From positions 1 through 60,709 of the forward strand of contig JANQSC010000040.1 in the NCBI GenBank assembly GCA_028284235.1: a stretch of 60,709 nt of DNA. Direction: 5' to 3'. Positions 8,102 through 52,176 of the stretch are shown one piece after another. The notes under the pieces were generated by a model. The model did no database searches. It was not told the DNA's origin and saw only the letters and a program-made list of their open reading frames with translations. Source of the stretch: Opitutaceae bacterium. GTDB lineage: Bacteria; Verrucomicrobiota; Verrucomicrobiia; Opitutales; Opitutaceae. The translations under genes were made by a program, and so were the position numbers. The number at the start of each line of letters is the position of its first letter. Position 1 is the first letter of the stretch.

Positions 8102-9199
8102 ATGCCCTCGACACGACTACTTCCTACTCTGTTTGCCTTGGCAGTGTTGACACTTCTCGGTTCCGAGATCACCGCCAAATCGGAGCCGCTGCGTGGCCTG
8201 TCGATCGCCGCTCCGGCCAAGGGCTCGGTGGCTCGATTTACCCGTTTCATCGAAGAGGAGCTGGCCGCGCGAAACGTCAACACACTCCTGATTCGTATCG
8301 ACTATCGATTCGAATACCAATCCCGCCCCGAACTCGTCGACGATGGCGCCCTCAGCCTCGGCGACGTAAAACAAATCGTCGCTGCGTGTCGCCGTCACGA
8401 CATCACGCTCATCCCCCAAATCAACCTGCTCGGACACCAGTCCTGGCACACGAAGGTCAACAAGCTCCTCGAAGTCTACCCCGAATTCGACGAAACGCCT
8501 CATGTCGTCATGCCCGAAACCTATGAGTGGCCCAACGACGACGGCCTTTATTGCAAAAGCTACTGCCCACTCCACCCCGATGTCCACGACGTCGTGTTCG
8601 ATCTCGTCGACGAGATCGTAGACGCCTTCGAGGCGAACGCGTTTCACGCCGGCATGGACGAGGTATTCTATATCGGCGACGACCGTTGCCCCCGCTGCGC
8701 CGGCAAGGACAAAGCCGTTCTCTTCGCCAACGAGGTCGAGAAGATCCGCGCCCATCTCGCCCAAACAGGGAAAGATCTTTGGATTTGGGGCGATCGACTG
8801 CTCGACGGCGTCACGACCGGATTGGGCATGTGGGAGGCCAGCGCCAACGACACCCACAGAGCGATCGATCTGATTTCCAAAGACGTCGTTATTTGCGACT
8901 GGCACTACGAACGGGCCGAACCCACCGCAGCCTACTTCGCCATGAAAGGGTTTACCGTCGCCACCTGCGCCTGGAACAAGCCGCAAGTCGCCCTGGCTCA
9001 GCTCGAACAGTTTCACCGCTTCAAGCAAAACGCCAATCCCACGCTCGCCAAACGCCACATCGGACTCATCCACACGGTTTGGTCCAGCGCAGACGCGTTT
9101 TTTGACGCCTTCGAAAACGGAGATTCAAATGACGACAATCGACAAGGCCCAGTCGACACTTTCAAGGCCCTTTTCAAATCGAGCCACTCGGAGGACTAG
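8102..9199 (+). CDS. Exported GH20-like (beta-N-acetylhexosaminidase-type) TIM-barrel protein
   Basis: Predicted exported 365-residue protein with signal peptide ending near ITAKSEP. The barrel contains 'LIPQINLLGHQSWH' and the acidic pair D186-E187 in 'FHAGMDEVFYIGDD', matching the catalytic Asp-Glu pair of glycoside hydrolase family 20 (substrate-assisted N-acetylhexosaminidases). A CPRCAGKD motif follows at 196-203, as in bacterial GH20-like proteins of PVC and Bacteroidetes genomes. It lacks the N-terminal GH20b domain and is shorter than classical hexosaminidases, so activity is inferred. The next gene starts two bases after the stop with its Shine-Dalgarno inside this gene, indicating translational coupling to an HGSNAT-like acetyltransferase; both would act on terminal amino sugars. 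Confidence 0.7.
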   Translation: MPSTRLLPTLFALAVLTLLGSEITAKSEPLRGLSIAAPAKGSVARFTRFIEEELAARNVNTLLIRIDYRFEYQSRPELVDDGALSLGDVKQIVAACRRHDITLIPQINLLGHQSWHTKVNKLLEVYPEFDETPHVVMPETYEWPNDDGLYCKSYCPLHPDVHDVVFDLVDEIVDAFEANAFHAGMDEVFYIGDDRCPRCAGKDKAVLFANEVEKIRAHLAQTGKDLWIWGDRLLDGVTTGLGMWEASANDTHRAIDLISKDVVICDWHYERAEPTAAYFAMKGFTVATCAWNKPQVALAQLEQFHRFKQNANPTLAKRHIGLIHTVWSSADAFFDAFENGDSNDDNRQGPVDTFKALFKSSHSED

Positions 9200-9201
9200 T
9201 C

Positions 9202-10410
9202 ATGAACTCCAAAGCCGCCTCTAATCCGAAAGCCGATCGCGTCGGATCCATCGACGCCTTCCGCGCCGTCACCATGCTCCTGATGCTTTGGGTCAACGAT
9301 TTCTGGACCCTCGTCGACATTCCCAACTGGCTCCAACACCAAGCCGCCGATGACGACGCTCTCGGGTTTTCCGATACGATTTTTCCCGCGTTCCTCTTCG
9401 CCGTAGGCCTCTCAATCCCCTTCGCGATTGAAAACCGAGCCCAGCGCGGCGACAGCAAACTAGCCCAACTCCGGCATATCGCGACTCGAGCCCTCGCCCT
9501 CGTCGTCATGGGCATCTTCATGGTCAATCTCGAGAACATTGCTCCCACACTACCCGTGATCGGAAAACTCGGATGGCAAGTTCTCATGACCCTCGCCTTC
9601 TTTCTCATCTGGAACCTCTACCCGAAGACCGGCTCCTGGAAACGAGCTGCCCCCTACCTCAAAACCACCGGCTGGCTCATCCTCGTGGGACTGGCGATTG
9701 TGTATCAAGGAGCCGGAGAACCACCGTCATGGATGAAAACCCACTGGTGGGGAATCCTCGGGTTGATCGGATGGTGCTACTTGATCGCGGCGACAATCTA
9801 CCTGTACTTGCCAAGAACGTTGATGGCGATGGCCCTGGCATGGATTGGATTCGCCCTGTTCAATATCGCCGAATTCACCCACCTATTCGACGCCCTCGAT
9901 CCGATAAAAAACTACGTCTGGATTGTTAGTGGTGGCTCGCTTCCCGCGATGACGCTCGCCGGAGTATTCGTATCCACGCTCTACCGACACCGTTCCCAAA
10001 ACACGGACGAATATAGATTCGTTCTCACTCTCGTCGCCATAGGTATCGCTACCCTTGCCGTCGGGATACTCCTTCGGCCCTATTGGGAGATTTCCAAAAT
10101 CCGTGCCACACCGGCATGGACGGAAATCTGCACCGGCCTCAGCATACTCTCCTTCGCCCTTTTGTACTGGATCGTCGATGTCAAGCGCCTCGTCTCCTGG
10201 ACACGCCTACTCGCCCCCGCAGGCACTGCGACGCTAACCTGCTACCTCGTCCCCTATTTCGTCTACGCAGTCGTGATGTTCCTCGGATTCTCCCTACCCG
10301 AGGCACTGCGAACTGGATCTATCGGACTCGTCAAGTCGATGCTGTTCGCCTGCTTCATCGTCGGCCTAACCGCTGTCTTGAGTCGCTACAAAATCAAGCT
10401 GCGAATCTAG
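9202..10410 (+). CDS. HGSNAT-like/DUF5009-type multipass membrane acetyltransferase
   Basis: Integral membrane protein of 402 residues with about ten hydrophobic helices. The N-terminal segment 'RVGSIDAFRAVTMLLMLWVND' matches the DUF5009/heparan-alpha-glucosaminide N-acetyltransferase (NagX-like) family, whose human member acetylates terminal glucosamine across the lysosomal membrane. A strong Shine-Dalgarno (GGAGGA, 9190-9195) precedes the ATG and overlaps the end of the GH20-like gene. Likely inner-membrane transfer of acetyl groups from cytoplasmic acetyl-CoA to a periplasmic sugar; this is a family-based inference. It converges with the YdjM-type gene with only five bases between stop codons. 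Confidence 0.75.
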   Translation: MNSKAASNPKADRVGSIDAFRAVTMLLMLWVNDFWTLVDIPNWLQHQAADDDALGFSDTIFPAFLFAVGLSIPFAIENRAQRGDSKLAQLRHIATRALALVVMGIFMVNLENIAPTLPVIGKLGWQVLMTLAFFLIWNLYPKTGSWKRAAPYLKTTGWLILVGLAIVYQGAGEPPSWMKTHWWGILGLIGWCYLIAATIYLYLPRTLMAMALAWIGFALFNIAEFTHLFDALDPIKNYVWIVSGGSLPAMTLAGVFVSTLYRHRSQNTDEYRFVLTLVAIGIATLAVGILLRPYWEISKIRATPAWTEICTGLSILSFALLYWIVDVKRLVSWTRLLAPAGTATLTCYLVPYFVYAVVMFLGFSLPEALRTGSIGLVKSMLFACFIVGLTAVLSRYKIKLRI

Positions 10411-10415
10411 TCGGC

Positions 10416-11420
10416 TCATTCGAGCCCGCGGATCAAGCGCCAGAGTCGCGACCCCACGCTTCGGTCCGCTTCGCGAAACGTGACAAATCGCGCGTGGGCA
10501 TCGGGACGGCTTGGATCGAACTCGATTCCCCAAAGCGGAACGCTCGAATCCGGCAGCATCGCGTACCGCGCATCTCCAATAATATTCGGCTCGGTCGGGT
10601 GCCAACCAAGATAGTCATCCGAAAAATGAGCAAAACGCTCGAGATCTCCGCTCAAAACGGATCCCTCAGGGAGTTCAGCCTCCAACGTTCGCCGGTCGAC
10701 ACCCCGAATCCGATCGCCTTCGTAAACCGAAACGCCGCCGCCCAAACCCACTCGAATCGCGTCCACCTGAAGACCTCCTTCGATTTCGTAAATCCCCCTC
10801 CACACAATCAGATTGCCGATAGACGGTTTTACAGAAATCCGACTCGCCTCCAAATGACCCCGTCCCTGAGCGAGCTGGATCACCGCCTCGTTCGCCCGAT
10901 AGTGCTGAACGCCTCCAAAAACCAAATACACCGTCACGAATACGAGCCCGAGCCAGACCGGCTTTCGCCGTCTCCACCAAAAGCCGAAACCGAGAGCGAT
11001 CAGCATCGCTCCTGTAAAAACCGGATCGATGATCGAAATGATGCTCCAGGCTACCCGCTCGTTCGAAAACGGCCAATAGAGCTGCGTCCCGTAACTCGTG
11101 CACGCATCGAGCAAACCCGCCGTCGCGTATCCCAAGGTAGCGTAGAGCAGCAACTCCTTGAACCCAGCCCATCGCTTCAAAACCAGCCACAAAACCGCCG
11201 CGCAGATCAACCCGCCGACCGGAATGAAAACCAGCGAATGAGTGAAGTGCCGGTGATACTCGATATTCAAAAGCGGGTCCGCGCTCGAGCGGATAAAAAT
11301 ATCCGCGTCCGCAAGCATACCGCCAGCCCAGCCCACACCCACCGCCAGGCGAAGGCGTTTTGGGTCCGCGCTCGAAGCCGCCGCGAGCGCTCCTAGAGCG
11401 CCCTGACTAACGGGGTCCAT
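10416..11420 (-). CDS. YdjM/DUF457-type membrane-bound metal-dependent hydrolase
   Basis: Membrane protein of 334 residues. The N-terminal half carries the family metal motif: 'MDPVSQGALGALAA', 'MLADADIF' and 'HRHFTHSL', with at least four membrane helices. This matches the YdjM/YbcI group of predicted inner-membrane metal-dependent hydrolases. The C-terminal third (from 'RANEAVIQLAQGRGH') is soluble and of unknown role. In E. coli ydjM is LexA-regulated, but I see no clear SOS box here. ATG 11420 is the natural start. Substrate unknown. Confidence 0.8.
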   Translation of the reverse strand: MDPVSQGALGALAAASSADPKRLRLAVGVGWAGGMLADADIFIRSSADPLLNIEYHRHFTHSLVFIPVGGLICAAVLWLVLKRWAGFKELLLYATLGYATAGLLDACTSYGTQLYWPFSNERVAWSIISIIDPVFTGAMLIALGFGFWWRRRKPVWLGLVFVTVYLVFGGVQHYRANEAVIQLAQGRGHLEASRISVKPSIGNLIVWRGIYEIEGGLQVDAIRVGLGGGVSVYEGDRIRGVDRRTLEAELPEGSVLSGDLERFAHFSDDYLGWHPTEPNIIGDARYAMLPDSSVPLWGIEFDPSRPDAHARFVTFREADRSVGSRLWRLIRGLE

Positions 11421-11454
11421 CGACTCGAATTTGCTGCATGCGCGTATCCAAGAA

Positions 11455-12465
11455 CTACTCGTACCCGGCGTCCAGCAACTTCGCGCGAGTCGACTCCAGC
11501 AACGCGACCGTCAACCGGTTTCCCTCCGCCTCGCTCAATCCGTCTCCCTCGTACTCCGCTCCCACCAGCCCATTAAAACCCGCGTCGAGAACCGTTTGCA
11601 TGCACTGGAAATAGTCGATGGTCGTCTCCGATCCATCCGGAGCGAACGCATGCGACTTCGCGCTCACGGCCCGCGTGTAGGGAGCCAAATCGAGCATTCC
11701 CTGATGCCGGTCGTAACGCCGTTCCGGGTCCAAGCCCCAGCCGCCCATAAAGAAATTGTCGAAGTCCGCCAAAACCCCCACCCGAGGGTGATCCGTCATC
11801 TCCATGAGCATGGCCAGCCACGCGCCATTGCTACCGGGATGTCCGTGGTTCTCGACGAGAATCTCCAATCCAAACGCCTTGGAAGCGTCGCCGAGACGAG
11901 CCAAACTCTCCGCGCATCGCTGACACTGTTCCAAGTAGTTGCCGTCTCCATACGGATTCGCCCGCAAGTAAGAGCAGCCCAACCTCTGTGCGGTGTCCAT
12001 CCAGCGAATGTGATTCTTCACCGCTACGTTGCGCTCGGAGCGATTACTCGCCCCGATTTTTCCGAGCTCGTCGCACATCAACCCGCCGAACCGGACGTCT
12101 TCCCCATCCGCTCGACGCTGGAACTCCCTCAGCCAAAGGGAGTCGTTCCCGCGACCGAACCAGAGAATATTCACCAAGTCCACGACATCGACACCCAGCT
12201 CGCGCGCCCGAACCACAATGTCCCGCGGATCCATAGTTCCCTTCAAAACCGAGTCCGGCTCCGAGTGGAGGGTCTTGATAAACCAATTGTAGTCCGACCG
12301 AGCGTCCCCGAAAATCGCTCGATGAAACCCCCACTGCGAGAGGGCGATCGTAAAAAGCCGATTGTCCGATCCGCCAGAAGCCTGCCCGCGAGCCAATCCG
12401 CTTCCCACAGCGCCCGCAACGACACTCCCCATCGCCAGTTTTTCGATAAACGCTCGTCGTTTCAT
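11455..12465 (-). CDS. Tat-exported sugar phosphate isomerase/epimerase-type TIM barrel
   Basis: Predicted exported protein of 336 residues in the xylose-isomerase-like TIM-barrel superfamily. It starts with a twin-arginine signal (MKRRAFIEKLAMGSVVAGAVGSGLARG), implying export after folding, probably with a metal bound. Barrel motifs include 'LEILVENHGHPGSN' and 'VGVLADFDNFF', which supply metal-binding Glu/Asp/His in this family, and 'AKSHAF' near the end. ATG 12465 is chosen because the Tat signal begins there. Such proteins act in sugar epimerisation or keto-sugar metabolism in PVC bacteria; the substrate is unknown. It is divergent from the small unknown gene at 12602, whose longer form would overlap this start codon. 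Confidence 0.8.
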   Translation of the reverse strand: MKRRAFIEKLAMGSVVAGAVGSGLARGQASGGSDNRLFTIALSQWGFHRAIFGDARSDYNWFIKTLHSEPDSVLKGTMDPRDIVVRARELGVDVVDLVNILWFGRGNDSLWLREFQRRADGEDVRFGGLMCDELGKIGASNRSERNVAVKNHIRWMDTAQRLGCSYLRANPYGDGNYLEQCQRCAESLARLGDASKAFGLEILVENHGHPGSNGAWLAMLMEMTDHPRVGVLADFDNFFMGGWGLDPERRYDRHQGMLDLAPYTRAVSAKSHAFAPDGSETTIDYFQCMQTVLDAGFNGLVGAEYEGDGLSEAEGNRLTVALLESTRAKLLDAGYE

Positions 12466-41381: not shown

Positions 41382-42530
41382 CTAGAGCTCGTGCTCAAGT
41401 ACAAGCTCCCATTCTACTATCTCCCAGGAATCGATGTGCTGTCGTTTTAACCGGGCTCTGTAATCCGTGGATTCCGATCCATCAAGCAAGTCTCTCTGCA
41501 AAAAGCAACTTACGCTTCCATCGTGCAGTTCCTCGCTCGACACGCTCAGTTCGATCCCTTCGAAAACTCGAATCGAATCTTCTGGAGGCGGTATAAGAAA
41601 CTCTCTGTTTTCCTCGAACTCCTTCTTCAATGTATCATTCCAGTTTTTAATCCTGATCGGTTCTTCATTGAAAATCCAAGTTTCACTCGGGTGAATTCGG
41701 GCCATTTTCACGAGCACTACCGTTTCCCACGATTTCGAATAGTGAGGTCCTACAAACTGATAGTACGATCCTCCTGTCAACTCAGCGAGATACTTCCCGT
41801 ATCGTTCAAAATTTGCCGCTGAGTCAAATTTAGGACGTTTGCCTGCATTAATTAAGTTAGCGTGAGCCTGTACCACGTTGATCGGTGGCAACTCACTTAT
41901 CTTTTTGAGGGCTCCAAGCCGCGTCCAAAAATTCGATGTATACTCATCTCCGAACAAGAATATTTCTGTTTCCAATTTTCCTGTCAGATTCTCCGCAACT
42001 TCGACCGCCTTTTTAATCCCCAGATCCCAACTGGATTCGCTGTGAAGAACATAGCGGGCAACCAGCTTAGCAATACCCAAAATTACTCGCTCCGTTTTCC
42101 TTCGATTAATTGAGCCTTTTTCCCCGCTCCATTCGACCATTAGCCTCCCATCTGTATCCAATAAAACGATATGAGATAAATTTTTGATACTGAGCAAAAA
42201 CACTAACAGCCGATCAACGACAACTTGATCTAGCAAGGATGTTTCGGGAGATCGCATGCTCCCCGAAGTATCCAATACGACAACCGCTGCCTCCAGATCG
42301 AACGTTGGCATCTGATAGTCGCCATTTTCCTCTACGACAATTTCTTTCGCCTTCAAATCGCCGGCTGTGTACTTTCTATCCAACTCAGCCCTGATTTCCT
42401 TGATACTGCGCTCTTTCCAATTCGAAAGCGGAACTCCGTTTTCCTCAGCATCCGCGCGTGCTAAGTCCGCAGCAGGAAAGACCGATAGCAAAACACACAG
42501 TCTGAGCACTCCGTTCACACACACTTTCAT
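41382..42530 (-). CDS. Secreted von Willebrand factor A (vWA) domain protein
   Basis: 382-residue protein from ATG 42530 with signal peptide (KVCVNGVLRLCVLLSVFPAADLARA). A vWA domain starts near residue 85: MIDAS motif DTSGSM (in VVVLDTSGSM), with further acidic/polar positions downstream ('LLDTDGRL', 'IFLFGDEY'). After ~residue 240 there is an unassigned C-terminal part. The gene is visibly richer in A/T than all its neighbours and uses A/T-ending codons more, suggesting recent transfer. It lies 55 bases downstream of a sulfatase on the same strand, so it may be read through from it. No MoxR ATPase or other vWA genes nearby. Function unknown. Confidence 0.7.
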   Translation of the reverse strand: MKVCVNGVLRLCVLLSVFPAADLARADAEENGVPLSNWKERSIKEIRAELDRKYTAGDLKAKEIVVEENGDYQMPTFDLEAAVVVLDTSGSMRSPETSLLDQVVVDRLLVFLLSIKNLSHIVLLDTDGRLMVEWSGEKGSINRRKTERVILGIAKLVARYVLHSESSWDLGIKKAVEVAENLTGKLETEIFLFGDEYTSNFWTRLGALKKISELPPINVVQAHANLINAGKRPKFDSAANFERYGKYLAELTGGSYYQFVGPHYSKSWETVVLVKMARIHPSETWIFNEEPIRIKNWNDTLKKEFEENREFLIPPPEDSIRVFEGIELSVSSEELHDGSVSCFLQRDLLDGSESTDYRARLKRQHIDSWEIVEWELVLEHEL

Positions 42531-42585
42531 CGTCCTCGTATTGAAGACACTATGCATGCGTCAAAAGCAACCGCTCTCGCCCAGT

Positions 42586-47669: not shown

Positions 47670-49163
47670 CTACCAATCCCGCTTTTGAGCTTCCCGCGTC
47701 ACCGCGCGGCGTCGAAACGCATCCGCCTGTTGGGCCTCGACAAAGCCGTCGAGGTAGCTCGGGTCGTCGCGGTTTTGGAACGCGGCGAAGACTGGATCGT
47801 TGGTCCTTTCCATAAACCGGCTCAGCTTCTCGCGATGCGCCTCAATCTCGTCCTGATAGTCGGGATGGTTGATTAGATTGATTAGATTGTCCGGATCGTT
47901 CTCGACATCGAAAAACTCCTCCACGACGCGATAGTCGTACTGCTGGAGAAGCTTCGACGCAAAGGGGTCGGTTTTGGCTAGAGCGATCATCTCCCGATAC
48001 GTGAGCGTTCCTTGGCCGGCCGCTTGAAACTTTCGGCCGCCCGTTGCCCAGGGATTGAAAATGTAGTTGAATTGCTTGGACTGAACTCCCCGCATCGGAT
48101 GGCGACGACGGCCCGAGCTCTCGTTGTATTCCTTAAACACGTGATCCAATTCAGGCTGTCTTATTCCTTGCAAAACTTTGTAGAACGATCGCCCTTCAAG
48201 CCCTTTCGGGTGCTCGATCTTCGCGATGTCCAACAAGGTCGGCAACAAGTCGAGGGCGGAGATCATATGATCCGTATCATGGATACCCGGCTTGATTTGC
48301 CCAGGCCAGCGAACCATCCAAGGCGTGCGCGTGCTATGGTGATACAAGCAAGTCTTCGCGAACGGGAACGGCATCCCGTGGTCGGAGAGAAACATAACAA
48401 CCGTGTCGTCCGCTTGCCCTGACTCGGCTAGCGCCCGCAACGTCTCCCCGACACAATCATCCGCCCGGCTGACCGACATGTAGTAGTGGGCGAGCTCTTT
48501 GCGGATATTCGGCGTGTCGGGAAGGTAGCCAGGAACCGGGATTTCTTCTGGGGTATAGAGTTTGCTCGGCGTGTAGGGATCCTCCATTTCCTTCCGTTGA
48601 TTCCAGCGGTAAAACGGGAGATGCGGATCGGAAATATTGATCAGGAGGCAGAAGGGCTTGTCCGCCTCCTTCGACGCCGCGATTCCCTTGGCAGTCATCC
48701 GATAGTAGGCGCCCGCGTCCTTAATGTGATTTTCCTCCCTGACACCCTCTGCCATTTCGAGATCCCAGGGATAAGGATAGTAAGGCGTAGTATGGGACTC
48801 CTTCCCGAAAATGCCCGTAAAGTACCCGCCCGCTTTCATCAGATCTACGAGATGCGGGTAGTGCGGCTCCTTGATCGCGTAAAACCCTTCTACCAAATTG
48901 CTGTGGGACGAACGTCCCGTGAACATCACATTCCTCCCGGGGTAGCAATTGCCGACCATCACATGGGCGTATTCGAAACGCGCCCCCTCCGCCGCTAACT
49001 GGTCCATGTGAGGCGTAATCCCCTTCAACGGACTACCGTAAACGCCAACGGAATCGCAGTTCATATCATCGACGGAAATGAAGAGAATATTGGGTCGGTC
49101 GGCCGAAGCAAATGGGCTCAATGCCGCGAAAAACAGGAAAAAACGGAAAATGGGGCGAAGCAT
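47670..49163 (-). CDS. Sulfamidase (N-sulfoglucosamine sulfohydrolase)-like sulfatase (S1_8-like), CYPGR
   Basis: 497-residue exported sulfatase from ATG 49163 (signal LRPIFRFFLFFAALSPFASA). 'ISVDDMNCDSVGVYG' gives the metal aspartates; the formylglycine precursor Cys73 is in C-Y-P-G-R, an allowed but unusual C-x-P-x-R variant with Gly at position four. The GKWH motif is replaced by 'GIFGKESHTTPYYPYPWD'. Together with 'PVPGYLPDTPNIRKELAHYY' and 'LSDHGMPFPFAKTCLY' this follows the layout of human SGSH. First gene of a probable minus-strand unit sulfatase - AEC transporter - esterase. True substrate unknown. Confidence 0.88.
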   Translation of the reverse strand: MLRPIFRFFLFFAALSPFASADRPNILFISVDDMNCDSVGVYGSPLKGITPHMDQLAAEGARFEYAHVMVGNCYPGRNVMFTGRSSHSNLVEGFYAIKEPHYPHLVDLMKAGGYFTGIFGKESHTTPYYPYPWDLEMAEGVREENHIKDAGAYYRMTAKGIAASKEADKPFCLLINISDPHLPFYRWNQRKEMEDPYTPSKLYTPEEIPVPGYLPDTPNIRKELAHYYMSVSRADDCVGETLRALAESGQADDTVVMFLSDHGMPFPFAKTCLYHHSTRTPWMVRWPGQIKPGIHDTDHMISALDLLPTLLDIAKIEHPKGLEGRSFYKVLQGIRQPELDHVFKEYNESSGRRRHPMRGVQSKQFNYIFNPWATGGRKFQAAGQGTLTYREMIALAKTDPFASKLLQQYDYRVVEEFFDVENDPDNLINLINHPDYQDEIEAHREKLSRFMERTNDPVFAAFQNRDDPSYLDGFVEAQQADAFRRRAVTREAQKRDW

Positions 49164-49242: not shown

Positions 49243-50751
49243 ATGCCCCAATACCTAGCGCCCGGCGTATACGTCCAAGAAGTCCCATCCGGCATCCGCT
49301 CCATCGAGGGCGTTTCGACCTCGATCACGGCATTCGTCGGACGTTGCCAACGCGGGCCTCTCGATACTCCTGTTTCCGTGCGGAGCTTCCACGAATTCGA
49401 AAATAGCTTCGGCGGCTTTTGGAAACACAGCGAACTCCCCTACGCAGCCAGCGACTTTTTCGAGAACGGCGGCAAAGAGGCGCTCGTCGTTCGTATTGCC
49501 AACGGCGCTACAACGGTCCGATTCAGCCTCCCCTCCTCCCGAAGCAAGGAGCCTCCGCTCCTACTTGAATCCGCAAATCCCGGGGCCTGGGGAAAACAGC
49601 TCGTAATATCTTCAAGCGAGGCTCCACACAATGGCTCGCTTTTCTCGCTTACAGTCTACGATCCCTCCACCAAACAAAGCGAGACCTTCGACAAACTGAG
49701 CTGTCGGCCGAAAAGCAAGTACTTCATCCCCAAAGTCCTCAATCGTTCCTCGAATTTGATTCGCGTCGTTCGCGAAAATCGAAAGTGGCAGATCCCCAAT
49801 TCCCGCCCCGCCCCCCAAAGCAAAGCCTCAGTTGTTTCGGGATTCGGCACCGATGGCAGGTCGCTGGTCGCGGACAACTTCTCCCACAACCGCCACAAAC
49901 GCCGCCGAACCGGACTCTACGCCTTGAAAAAGGCGGACATCGTCAATCTCCTCTACATCCCCCCCTACAAGTCCGACGGGTCGATCGAGCCCACGCTCGT
50001 CACAGACGCCGCTTCCTTCTGCGAACAAAACCAAGTCTTTCTCATTCTCGACCCTCCCCCCGCTTGGAACGACGTTCAAAGCGCGGCCGCTCAATCCCAG
50101 GCGCTCGCAACATCGAGCAAAAACGCAGCCGTGTTTTTTCCTCGGATACAAAAACTCGACCCCCTCGACCCTCCAAACTCGAGAGACGCCGCTCCAGGCG
50201 GGTCTATTGCGGGGATCTTCGCCCGCATCGACACAACCCGAGGCGTCTGGAAAGCCCCGGCAGGCGTCAAAGTCAACGGAGCCACCGGTCTCGCGCTCGA
50301 CGTTTCCAGCGCCGATCAAAACCTCCTCAATCCGCAAGCGATCAACTGCGTGAGGCGATTCCCAAACCGCGGCATTCTTCTCTGGGGCGCTCGCACCTTG
50401 CAAGGACGAGACTCTACGCCCTCGGATTGGCGGTACATCCCCATCCGTCGCCTTGCCCTCCACATCGAGTCGTCCCTGATTCGTGGCACTCAATGGGCCG
50501 TATTCGAGCCGAACGACGCGAATCTCTGGAGCTCGATCCGAAGCTCCGTATCCAATTTTCTCCACCAGCTCTGGCGCGAAGGCGCCTTTCCGGGCGCCAC
50601 TGCGAACGAATCGTTCTTCGTCCGATGCGATCGCTCCACCATGACGCAAGCCGACCTCGACTCGGGCCGCCTGGTGATCCAAGTCGGATTCGCCCCGCTC
50701 AAACCTGCCGAGTTCATCATGCTCCAACTCTCTCAAAAAACCGCCTCGTGA
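49243..50751 (+). CDS. Orphan phage tail/eCIS sheath protein
   Basis: 502 residues. It opens 'MPQYLAPGVYVQEVPSGIRS', the conserved N-terminal arm of contractile tail sheaths, continues 'GVSTSITAFVGRCQRGPLDTPV' and 'AASDFFENGGKEALVVRIA', and ends with the sheath C-terminal domain ('RRLALHIESSLIRGTQWAVFEPND', 'FLHQLWREGAFPG', 'FFVRCDRSTMTQADLDSGRL', 'VGFAPLKPAEFIM', each shortened). Length and both polymerisation arms look complete, closest to extracellular contractile injection systems (Afp/PVC/MAC-type). No tube, baseplate, spike, cap or AAA+ ATPase gene is within the window. Longer in-frame starts reach 49078 inside the divergent sulfatase and are rejected. Intact reading frame argues for selection. 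Role as a lone sheath is unknown. Confidence 0.85.
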   Translation: MPQYLAPGVYVQEVPSGIRSIEGVSTSITAFVGRCQRGPLDTPVSVRSFHEFENSFGGFWKHSELPYAASDFFENGGKEALVVRIANGATTVRFSLPSSRSKEPPLLLESANPGAWGKQLVISSSEAPHNGSLFSLTVYDPSTKQSETFDKLSCRPKSKYFIPKVLNRSSNLIRVVRENRKWQIPNSRPAPQSKASVVSGFGTDGRSLVADNFSHNRHKRRRTGLYALKKADIVNLLYIPPYKSDGSIEPTLVTDAASFCEQNQVFLILDPPPAWNDVQSAAAQSQALATSSKNAAVFFPRIQKLDPLDPPNSRDAAPGGSIAGIFARIDTTRGVWKAPAGVKVNGATGLALDVSSADQNLLNPQAINCVRRFPNRGILLWGARTLQGRDSTPSDWRYIPIRRLALHIESSLIRGTQWAVFEPNDANLWSSIRSSVSNFLHQLWREGAFPGATANESFFVRCDRSTMTQADLDSGRLVIQVGFAPLKPAEFIMLQLSQKTAS

Positions 50752-50883: not shown

Positions 50884-52176
50884 ATGAAAATTCAACCACT
50901 CCAAACTCTCCTCGGCCTCGTGGTCGCAACCCTGTTGATCCCGATCGCCTACGCTTCGGAAATCGCTACCCAGTCCGACTGGACCGGATGGCGGGGTCCG
51001 GATCAAACCAACATCTCCCCGGACACCGGCCTCCTCAAGTCGTGGCCGAAAGGCGGCCCGAAACTGCTCTGGACCTACGAGAACGCGGGAAGCGGCTACT
51101 CCAGCGCCGCGATCGTCGACGGAAAACTCTACACGCTCGGCTCGCGCAACAGCCAGGAAATGGTCATCTGCCTTGACGCGAACACCGGGAAGGAACTTTG
51201 GACGGTGGAGTTCGAAACCGATCCGGAAGAAGGATACCGCACTCAATGGGGCGCCGGACCCCGTTCGACGCCGACCGTGAGCGATGGCCATGTCTACGCC
51301 CTCGGTGTGGCGGGCGACATCGTTTGCCTCACTGCCGACAAAGGAACGGAAGTTTGGAGCAAGAACTTGGTAACTGATTTCGGCGGCGCCGTTTCGAGGT
51401 GGGGCTATTCGGAATCGCCGACCGTCGATGGCGACAAAGTGCTCGTCACCCCGGGCGGAAGCAAAGGCGCCATCGTGGCCCTCAACAAGAAAACCGGGGC
51501 AAAGCTGTGGCAGTCGAAGAAACTGAAAGACGCCGCCGAGTATTCCTCCGTGGTCGCTGCCGATGTCGATGGGAAACGCCAGTACATACAGCTATTTATG
51601 AATACGCTCGCCGGCGTCGATGCCGCGAACGGAAATTTGCTTTGGAGATCCGATTGGCCTCAAGGGCGAACCGCGGTGATTCCCACGCCGATTCACCGAG
51701 ACGGCCACGTATTCATGACTTCAGGATATCGCGCGGGCGCCAAACTCGTTAAAGTAGACGGAAAAAAAGCGGAAAACGTTTGGGAAAACCAGGAGATGAT
51801 CAATCATCACGGCGGCGTGGTTCTCATTGGCGATCACGTGTACGGATTTTCCGATCAACGAAAAGGCAACCTGATGTGCATCGATTTCATGACCGGCGAA
51901 GTCGCCTGGATGCACCGCGTCGAACGCGAACTCCACAAAGGAACCGTTCACGCGGCCGACGGAATGCTCTACTGTCTCAACGAAAGTGAAGGATGGGTTT
52001 ACCTAGTAGAAGCGAACCCGTCCGGCTTCAAGGAACGGGGCAAATTCCAGCTCCCTAAAGAGAGCGCTTTGCGCGACGATCACAACGGGAAGATTTGGTC
52101 GCATCCAGTCGTCATCAACGGGAAGCTCTACCTGCGCGACCAAGACCTGATCTTCTGCTACGACGTGAAGGGCTAG
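50884..52176 (+). CDS. Exported PQQ-like beta-propeller protein
   Basis: 430-residue exported propeller (signal MKIQPLQTLLGLVVATLLIPIAYA). Blades: 'CLDANTGKELWTVEF', 'CLTADKGTEVWSKNL', 'ALNKKTGAKLWQSKK', 'GVDAANGNLLWRSDW', 'CIDFMTGEVAWMHRV'. Opening 'DWTGWRGPDQTNISPDTGLLKSWP' is the common PVC propeller start. It follows the sheath gene on the same strand by 132 bases and converges with another propeller gene. BamB/PQQ-type fold; catalytic role not demonstrable. Confidence 0.82.
   Translation: MKIQPLQTLLGLVVATLLIPIAYASEIATQSDWTGWRGPDQTNISPDTGLLKSWPKGGPKLLWTYENAGSGYSSAAIVDGKLYTLGSRNSQEMVICLDANTGKELWTVEFETDPEEGYRTQWGAGPRSTPTVSDGHVYALGVAGDIVCLTADKGTEVWSKNLVTDFGGAVSRWGYSESPTVDGDKVLVTPGGSKGAIVALNKKTGAKLWQSKKLKDAAEYSSVVAADVDGKRQYIQLFMNTLAGVDAANGNLLWRSDWPQGRTAVIPTPIHRDGHVFMTSGYRAGAKLVKVDGKKAENVWENQEMINHHGGVVLIGDHVYGFSDQRKGNLMCIDFMTGEVAWMHRVERELHKGTVHAADGMLYCLNESEGWVYLVEANPSGFKERGKFQLPKESALRDDHNGKIWSHPVVINGKLYLRDQDLIFCYDVKG

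Follow-up and report, generated by a model that had tools for sequence, protein, structure and literature searches.

An intact contractile tail sheath gene without credible CIS partners in an Opitutaceae genome

The genome of an Opitutaceae bacterium carries a complete contractile tail sheath gene for which we found no credible CIS partner, and we are highly confident that this gene is the survivor of a lost CIS and has long been kept. Our preferred explanation as a whole, namely that it is the one part of that CIS still found intact, is probably kept by selection and perhaps polymerizes without a tube, has in our judgment an even chance of being correct. Present use of the sheath is plausible; its present use specifically as a polymer, argued by analogy, falls somewhat short of even. 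Intact and apparently constrained, the lone sheath also belongs to a pattern that recurs inside one family, where a series leads from a cluster via sheath plus tube and sheath alone to scraps. It offers a case in which the retention of a contractile sheath purely as a polymer can be tested. All positions refer to the window, the whole stretch of DNA analyzed, which is an entire contig (C25, 60709 bases) of genome G000 (6.13 Mb, 81 contigs, 97.12% complete, 0% estimated contamination, not closed). Between the sheath gene and the closer end of the contig lie 9958 bases.

The sheath gene (positions 49243 to 50751, plus strand) is a complete frame of 502 amino acids, undamaged across all 502 codons, with APGVYVQEVPSG near the N-terminus and VGFAPLKPAEFI near the C-terminus. 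Pfam analysis detected Phage_sheath_1 (3e-16; residues 235-386, positions 49945 to 50400) and Phage_sheath_1C (3.2e-13; residues 392-496, positions 50416 to 50730), in conserved order and both above the curated cut-offs. The solved sheaths 8bky_A and 8bl4_V, labelled Phage tail sheath (family) protein, resemble the product over its full length (residues 1-499, E 5e-87 and 3e-84). Alignment with CIS sheaths showed both terminal arms to be present, the N-terminal arm APGVYVQEVPSG occupying residues 6-17 (49258 to 49293). With both domains, both arms and the near-invariant residues discussed below, the product has the features of a contractile tail sheath protein, and the full-length gene without frameshift claimed in a preliminary description of this DNA is borne out. 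Starting at an alternative ATG (49078) would lengthen the protein to 557 residues; most homologues begin at the position of the 49243 ATG.

A database search with the window sheath as the query confirmed 569 candidates, from which the best 80 were taken and 79 loci used. Among these best 80 of 569, the top loci were 41-44% identical to the window sheath in the best segment and came from cyanobacteria, Streptomyces, Kitasatospora and a Methylobacter MAG. Within the same family as the window, the CIS sheath of genome G052 (L096) is 44% identical over its full length and has the same domain order. Unlike the window sheath, it is accompanied by an adjoining tube, a Pvc16-like cap, an AAA gene and further CIS-locus frames, with gp25, hub and baseplate J matches on contig C42, and its pI is 4.75 as compared with 9.68. 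The 8bky_A and 8bl4_V sheaths presumably come from complete systems, whereas searches of the window's genome revealed neither tube nor baseplate nor cap.

A scan of the window's open reading frames of at least 80 amino acids with 19 profiles found the sheath alone and no other CIS-locus family, in good agreement with the earlier claim that tube, baseplate, spike, cap and ATPase genes are missing for at least 10 kb around it. One core gene in 60.7 kb stands against the at least 10 clustered core genes demanded by an eCIS survey as described in PMC8213781, and a further CIS survey, as described in PMC12210884, required baseplate, tube and sheath-initiator genes. Because of these demands, lone sheaths fall outside both surveys. 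The genome-wide search for tube, baseplate and ATPase genes suggested in the preliminary description was carried out on G000, which holds one sheath gene, and yielded no credible CIS partner. The Pfam tube model gave one sub-cut-off match (20.4 bits) with an internal stop, which we take as chance since it lies antisense to a 1022-aa frame. Two sub-cut-off matches (14.7 and 13 bits) were obtained for the Pfam gp25 model and no Pvc16_N match, indicative of a Pvc16-type cap, was found in G000. Using profiles built in this analysis, tube, gp25, hub and baseplate J likewise gave no match in G000 at E 0.001 (in the tube-profile search of 252 genomes, 15 of 22 first-look candidates were scored). The AAA profile reached only 35.4 bits, the level of the general AAA match seen in nearly every genome, as compared with 188-947 bits in 11 genomes where a sheath adjoins tube and baseplate genes. 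In these 11 positive controls, baseplate J and gp25 were detected in 11 of 11 and hub in 10 of 11 (not G254), with some controls being non-independent (G068 gave rows to all five profiles, G052 to tube and AAA, G162 and G202 to AAA). The idea that a dispersed eCIS has its sheath here was rejected on these grounds: neither the Pfam tube, gp25 and Pvc16_N models nor our own tube, gp25, AAA, hub and J profiles found a credible tube, baseplate component, Pvc16-type cap or CIS AAA ATPase in G000.

Sequence extends for at least 3 kb beyond the sheath in 66 of the 79 database loci, and 65 of these 66 have a tube-type frame, a count biased toward finding tubes since the tube profiles were partly built from the same 79 loci. 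A tube-type frame is missing in one of the 13 shorter loci (L045, at a contig end). The exception among the longer loci, L094, is a Rhodocyclaceae MAG sheath (9953-11917) with no other CIS profile match in 18.6 kb and is a possible lone sheath from beyond the window's own group. A Hormoscilla MAG (L017, 5248-11584) carries three tandem sheath genes.

Pfam confirmed the two neighbors named in the preliminary description, a divergent sulfatase gene (47670 to 49163, minus strand) and a downstream gene for a PQQ-type propeller protein (50884 to 52176, plus strand). Ten of the 20 Pfam-scanned window frames, spanning 26707-60686, are sulfatase genes. The sulfatase and DUF7133/cytochrome families suggest a member of the Verrucomicrobiota. 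The proposed synteny comparison with related genomes showed that three of the same genus (G010, G002 and G006) have a sulfatase orthologue (82-83% identical) upstream of a PQQ orthologue (84-86%), as in the window, with 5-6 kb and other frames between the two in these sisters. The remaining seven same-genus genomes gave no PQQ orthologue at E 1e-60, and the site comparison comprises G010, G002 and G006. None of these three has a sheath gene by sheath profile. Scraps of the sheath, however, lie before the PQQ gene in each. The G002 scrap (27 residues, KLINQIGFASLKPAEFITLKFSPKTAS), located 170 bases 5' of the PQQ start, aligns to sheath residues 476-502 (window positions 50668 to 50748, plus strand), through the C-terminus; it ends in SPKTAS where the window sheath has SQKTAS, and the sheath stop codon is lost. 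The scraps of G010 (22 residues, 419-440, with an internal stop) and G006 (24 residues, 417-440) both lie 15 bases 5' of the PQQ start and fall within window positions 50491 to 50562 (plus strand). They should represent one event, as these genomes are close kin (PQQ dS 0.21). Although E-values are modest (0.023 for G010, 0.052 for G006), in tests with 400 dinucleotide-shuffled DNAs and 200 shuffled proteins per sister, not one equalled the score of the scrap, and each scrap is the best match in the full 19.9 kb on both strands.

The position of the scraps, 5' of the PQQ gene in all three sisters, indicates that the sheath adjoined the PQQ gene in the common ancestor. The sheath site is ancestral in several species of the genus, which has seen one or more losses of the gene, and the gene is dispensable in the sisters, where only scraps remain. 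With a sheath-PQQ gap of only 132 bases in G000 and 170 bases in G002, there is no room for a tube behind the sheath. The tube profile had no match in 11 genomes of the window's genus, though it missed a tube start of 22 codons at the edge of a G005 contig, and baseplate J had none in the three sisters with scraps. The preliminary description had named absence or decay of the gene in close relatives as speaking against its reading; scraps are indeed all that is left in three of them, but the window copy is intact. Since it has remained so after a divergence of about 1 synonymous change per site (PQQ dS from window to sisters 1.03-1.17, the sulfatase being near saturation), the sister scraps do not show it to be dead. 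A broken frame or lost conserved residues, as expected for a pseudogene, characterize the scraps and not the window copy.

In a neutral simulation counting substitutions alone, a stop was gained in 57% of copies at 0.02 changes per site, in 98.8% at 0.1 and in 500 of 500 at 0.2. That the frame is intact thus argues for selection during the greater part of the period after the split, provided that the gene lived on its own merits. The window sheath further keeps 65 of 66 near-invariant columns, defined as at least 92% conserved across 24 reference sheaths. For comparison, 23 of the 24 reference sheaths keep 64-66 of 66-71 columns and the G225 sheath 62 of 72, while other lone or split sheaths, from different clades, keep 59 (L164), 53 (L098) and 53 (L162) of 66. 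By these results, the sheath looks constrained. The residue and simulation results favor a kept gene, whereas the scraps show dispensability in its kin. The survival argument presumes that the sheath already stood on its own when the species diverged, and a CIS located elsewhere and lost lately would also explain the preserved residues. Moreover, 65 of 66 kept positions would seem to exceed the needs of a re-purposed protein.

A serious though rather unlikely alternative is a fresh leftover without function, the CIS having been lost recently or its rest having been elsewhere until recently, with the sheath whole by chance. Such decay occurs in the group, as seen from the scraps in three sisters and from L100 of G080, where all that follows the sheath is a tube frame of 84 aa. 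The window sheath also has a long terminal branch (1.37 as compared with a median of 0.45) without supported neighbors in a tree of 46 sheaths, which together with its basic shift could be relaxation. However, 502 codons without damage and the 65 conserved positions argue against a leftover, and the lack of tube-profile matches across the genus, the tube start of G005 aside, means that the loss was not obviously recent.

In our preferred explanation of a long-kept survivor, the sheath would already have stood beside the PQQ gene in an ancestor of several species, with the rest of the CIS lost. It would then have been reduced to scraps in the three sisters, whereas in the window species it stayed whole, selection probably retaining the lone gene. 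The protein alone, without tube or baseplate, may form tubes or rings in the contracted state, like phage sheaths, a step we regard as possible but slightly on the doubtful side. Recombinant sheath gp053 of phage FV3 forms tubes by itself without tube or baseplate, and phage sheaths assembled in this way show the helical parameters of the contracted state, as reported in PMC6357053; gp18 self-assembly into T4 polysheath is described in PMC9230969. The earlier statement that sheaths normally need a tube as template thus holds for the extended, firing form but not for these recombinant phage sheaths, which form tubes alone. Phage polysheath is a laboratory product of a phage gene assembling alone into tubes, whereas the window sheath is a chromosomal gene kept alone, whose protein may assemble likewise. 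Given the preserved arms and core and the tube formation of phage sheaths, self-assembly would be the most likely activity, and a biological role is putative. A firing syringe is not expected from the window sheath alone because single deletion of a baseplate, tube or sheath-initiator gene of Pvc abolishes particles (earlier work cited in PMC12210884). In the literature searched, which left out most subscription journals, no title or abstract opening described a lone sheath.

Sheath profile matches were found in 22 of 252 genomes and tube profile matches in 17 of 252. In ten of the sheath genomes (G052, G113, G126, G162, G166, G202, G232, G240, G246 and G254) the sheath lies beside tube and baseplate matches, the eleventh control, G068, being from another family. 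The G225 sheath adjoins a tube with no gp25, hub or J match. Lone and split sheaths recur in the family: five of the 22 sheath genomes have no tube match (G000, G023, G029, G127 and G244) and in three the two genes for sheath and tube lie on separate contigs (G239, G228 and G245). Three further sheath genomes were left out of this grouping (G015, phage-like with gp25- and J-type frames near; G130, a 25-bit fragment; G005, a contig end with a tube start). No gp25 or baseplate J match was found in the eight lone or split genomes, and G029 has one weak hub match (23 bits). AAA matches above the general level occur in G245 (165 bits), G023 (149 bits) and G225 (252 bits). The lone sheaths of G023, G029, G127 and G244 resemble that of the window in lacking a tube match in the genome but differ in belonging to another sheath clade with other neighbors, and are not orthologous to it. 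On the tree of 46 sheaths, which does not distinguish gain from loss, the lone-or-split label (nine rows, including the divergent L101 of G080, from another family) changes 6 times, with at least 4 changes forced by well-supported branches. Between G239 and G228, dN/dS is 0.30 for the split sheath, 0.15 for the tube and 0.25 for a neighboring frame, with 0.19 and 0.21 for nearby control genes; these split genes are kept, the sheath least strictly. The same ratio says little in the lone or split sheaths from G029, G244 and G245, owing to saturation of dS.

In G239, the sheath is found at one locus (L164, 9137-10744) and the tube with one CIS-type frame at another (L165, 8999-10165), without gp25, hub or J, and G228 shows the same arrangement (L166, 9218-10819; L167, 2087-3585). 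Sheath (L168, 8954-10528) and tube (L169, 9673-10131) of G245 each stand alone on different long contigs, and G031 has a weak lone tube (L174, 9103-9651). A conserved partner gene of lone sheaths was sought by all-against-all comparison of open reading frames from 11 sheath loci, with window frames ending at or after 36000, and four tube-only loci. This candidate was rejected, as shared frames other than sheath, tube and antisense frames came almost entirely from G239 and G228, which belong to one genus, besides four single shared pairs (L098/L174, L099/L166, L168/L174 and L173/L174). Integration linked to tRNA genes was likewise rejected as a general rule: a tRNA lies beside L098 (tRNA-Gly at 8457-8530, some 175 bases ahead of the lone G029 sheath) and L101, with none in the window, L099, L162, L163, L164, L166 or L168. 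Around the window sheath gene, no clear promoter or terminator was seen, with one promoter-like site on the minus strand (shuffles mean 0.4) and two terminator-like sites (shuffles 3.5).

These genomes also bear on an improbable alternative, a functional CIS that includes this sheath and has its remaining genes in sequence absent from the assembly. A completeness of 97.1% leaves space for a 20 kb cluster, the preserved residues resemble those of reference sheaths, and separate contigs for sheath and tube are found in G239, G228 and G245. In addition, a contig of the same-genus G005 (6% contamination) closes with the 3' end of a sheath and the start of a tube gene. However, tube, gp25, hub, J and cap would all need to be missing from the assembly, and the three scrap-bearing sisters have no tube or baseplate J match either. 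Lone sheaths also occur in G029 (about 10 contigs), G127 (about 20 contigs) and G023. The G023 assembly consists of one contig and is 99% complete, so gaps in assembly do not account for every lone sheath.

Contamination or misassembly, by which a foreign sheath was spliced into the contig, is very improbable: the contamination estimate is 0%, codon use and GC3 of the sheath fall inside the range of 28 other window genes, and sheath scraps lie at the same place in three sisters, although such a join is likely in contig C321 of G005, where the sheath 3' end and tube start (L105, 2361-3370) abut the frame of another gene at the contig end, probably as a chimera in a bin with 6% contamination. 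Among the 29 presumed window genes, the most deviant codon use belongs to a 391-aa frame without Pfam match at 41382-42557 (codon-use correlation 0.49, GC3 0.50). Prophage or plasmid cargo can be dismissed with similar confidence, for while the sheath family is common to phages and viral contigs reach 52% identity in the best segment (L236), phage sequences are 24-29% identical among the matches listed (8 of 1633), plasmid sequences at 38-44% among the matches listed (8 of 126) are no closer than CIS sheaths, the best full-length viral-contig match (E 1e-91) is weaker than chromosomal loci (2e-131), no phage gene besides the sheath was found among 20 window frames scanned with Pfam, and chromosomal neighbors and same-site sister scraps are present.

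The window sheath has the highest pI (9.68 for the protein, 9.72 for the domain envelope) among 108 sheath rows, with 83 of 85 database sheath rows at or below 8. The main source of the extra charge is a region of net charge +11 at residues 160-225 (49720 to 49917, plus strand), whose length differs between aligned sheaths. Four of nine lone-or-split rows are basic (the window, L162, L099 and L168) and five are not (L098, L163, L164, L166 and L101); the G225 sheath is basic too. An association of basic charge with the lone-or-split state is a trend at best. A broader, family-wide reading would be that sheaths of lost machines were kept several times independently as stand-alone polymers, and that the window copy is one of them, with a new, strongly basic variable region that could interact with polyanions, for instance DNA, RNA or a sulfated glycan; we consider this unlikely. 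Two further loci were observed in G080. On contig C19, a sheath is followed by the 84-aa tube frame only (L100, 5550-8059), a possible intermediate of CIS decay. On contig C12, a very divergent sheath-derived protein with a C-terminal extension (L101, 6942-8345) lies beside a tRNA-Ser gene, and a stretch that by eye resembles a signal peptide replaces its N-terminal arm; it is possibly an exported sheath.
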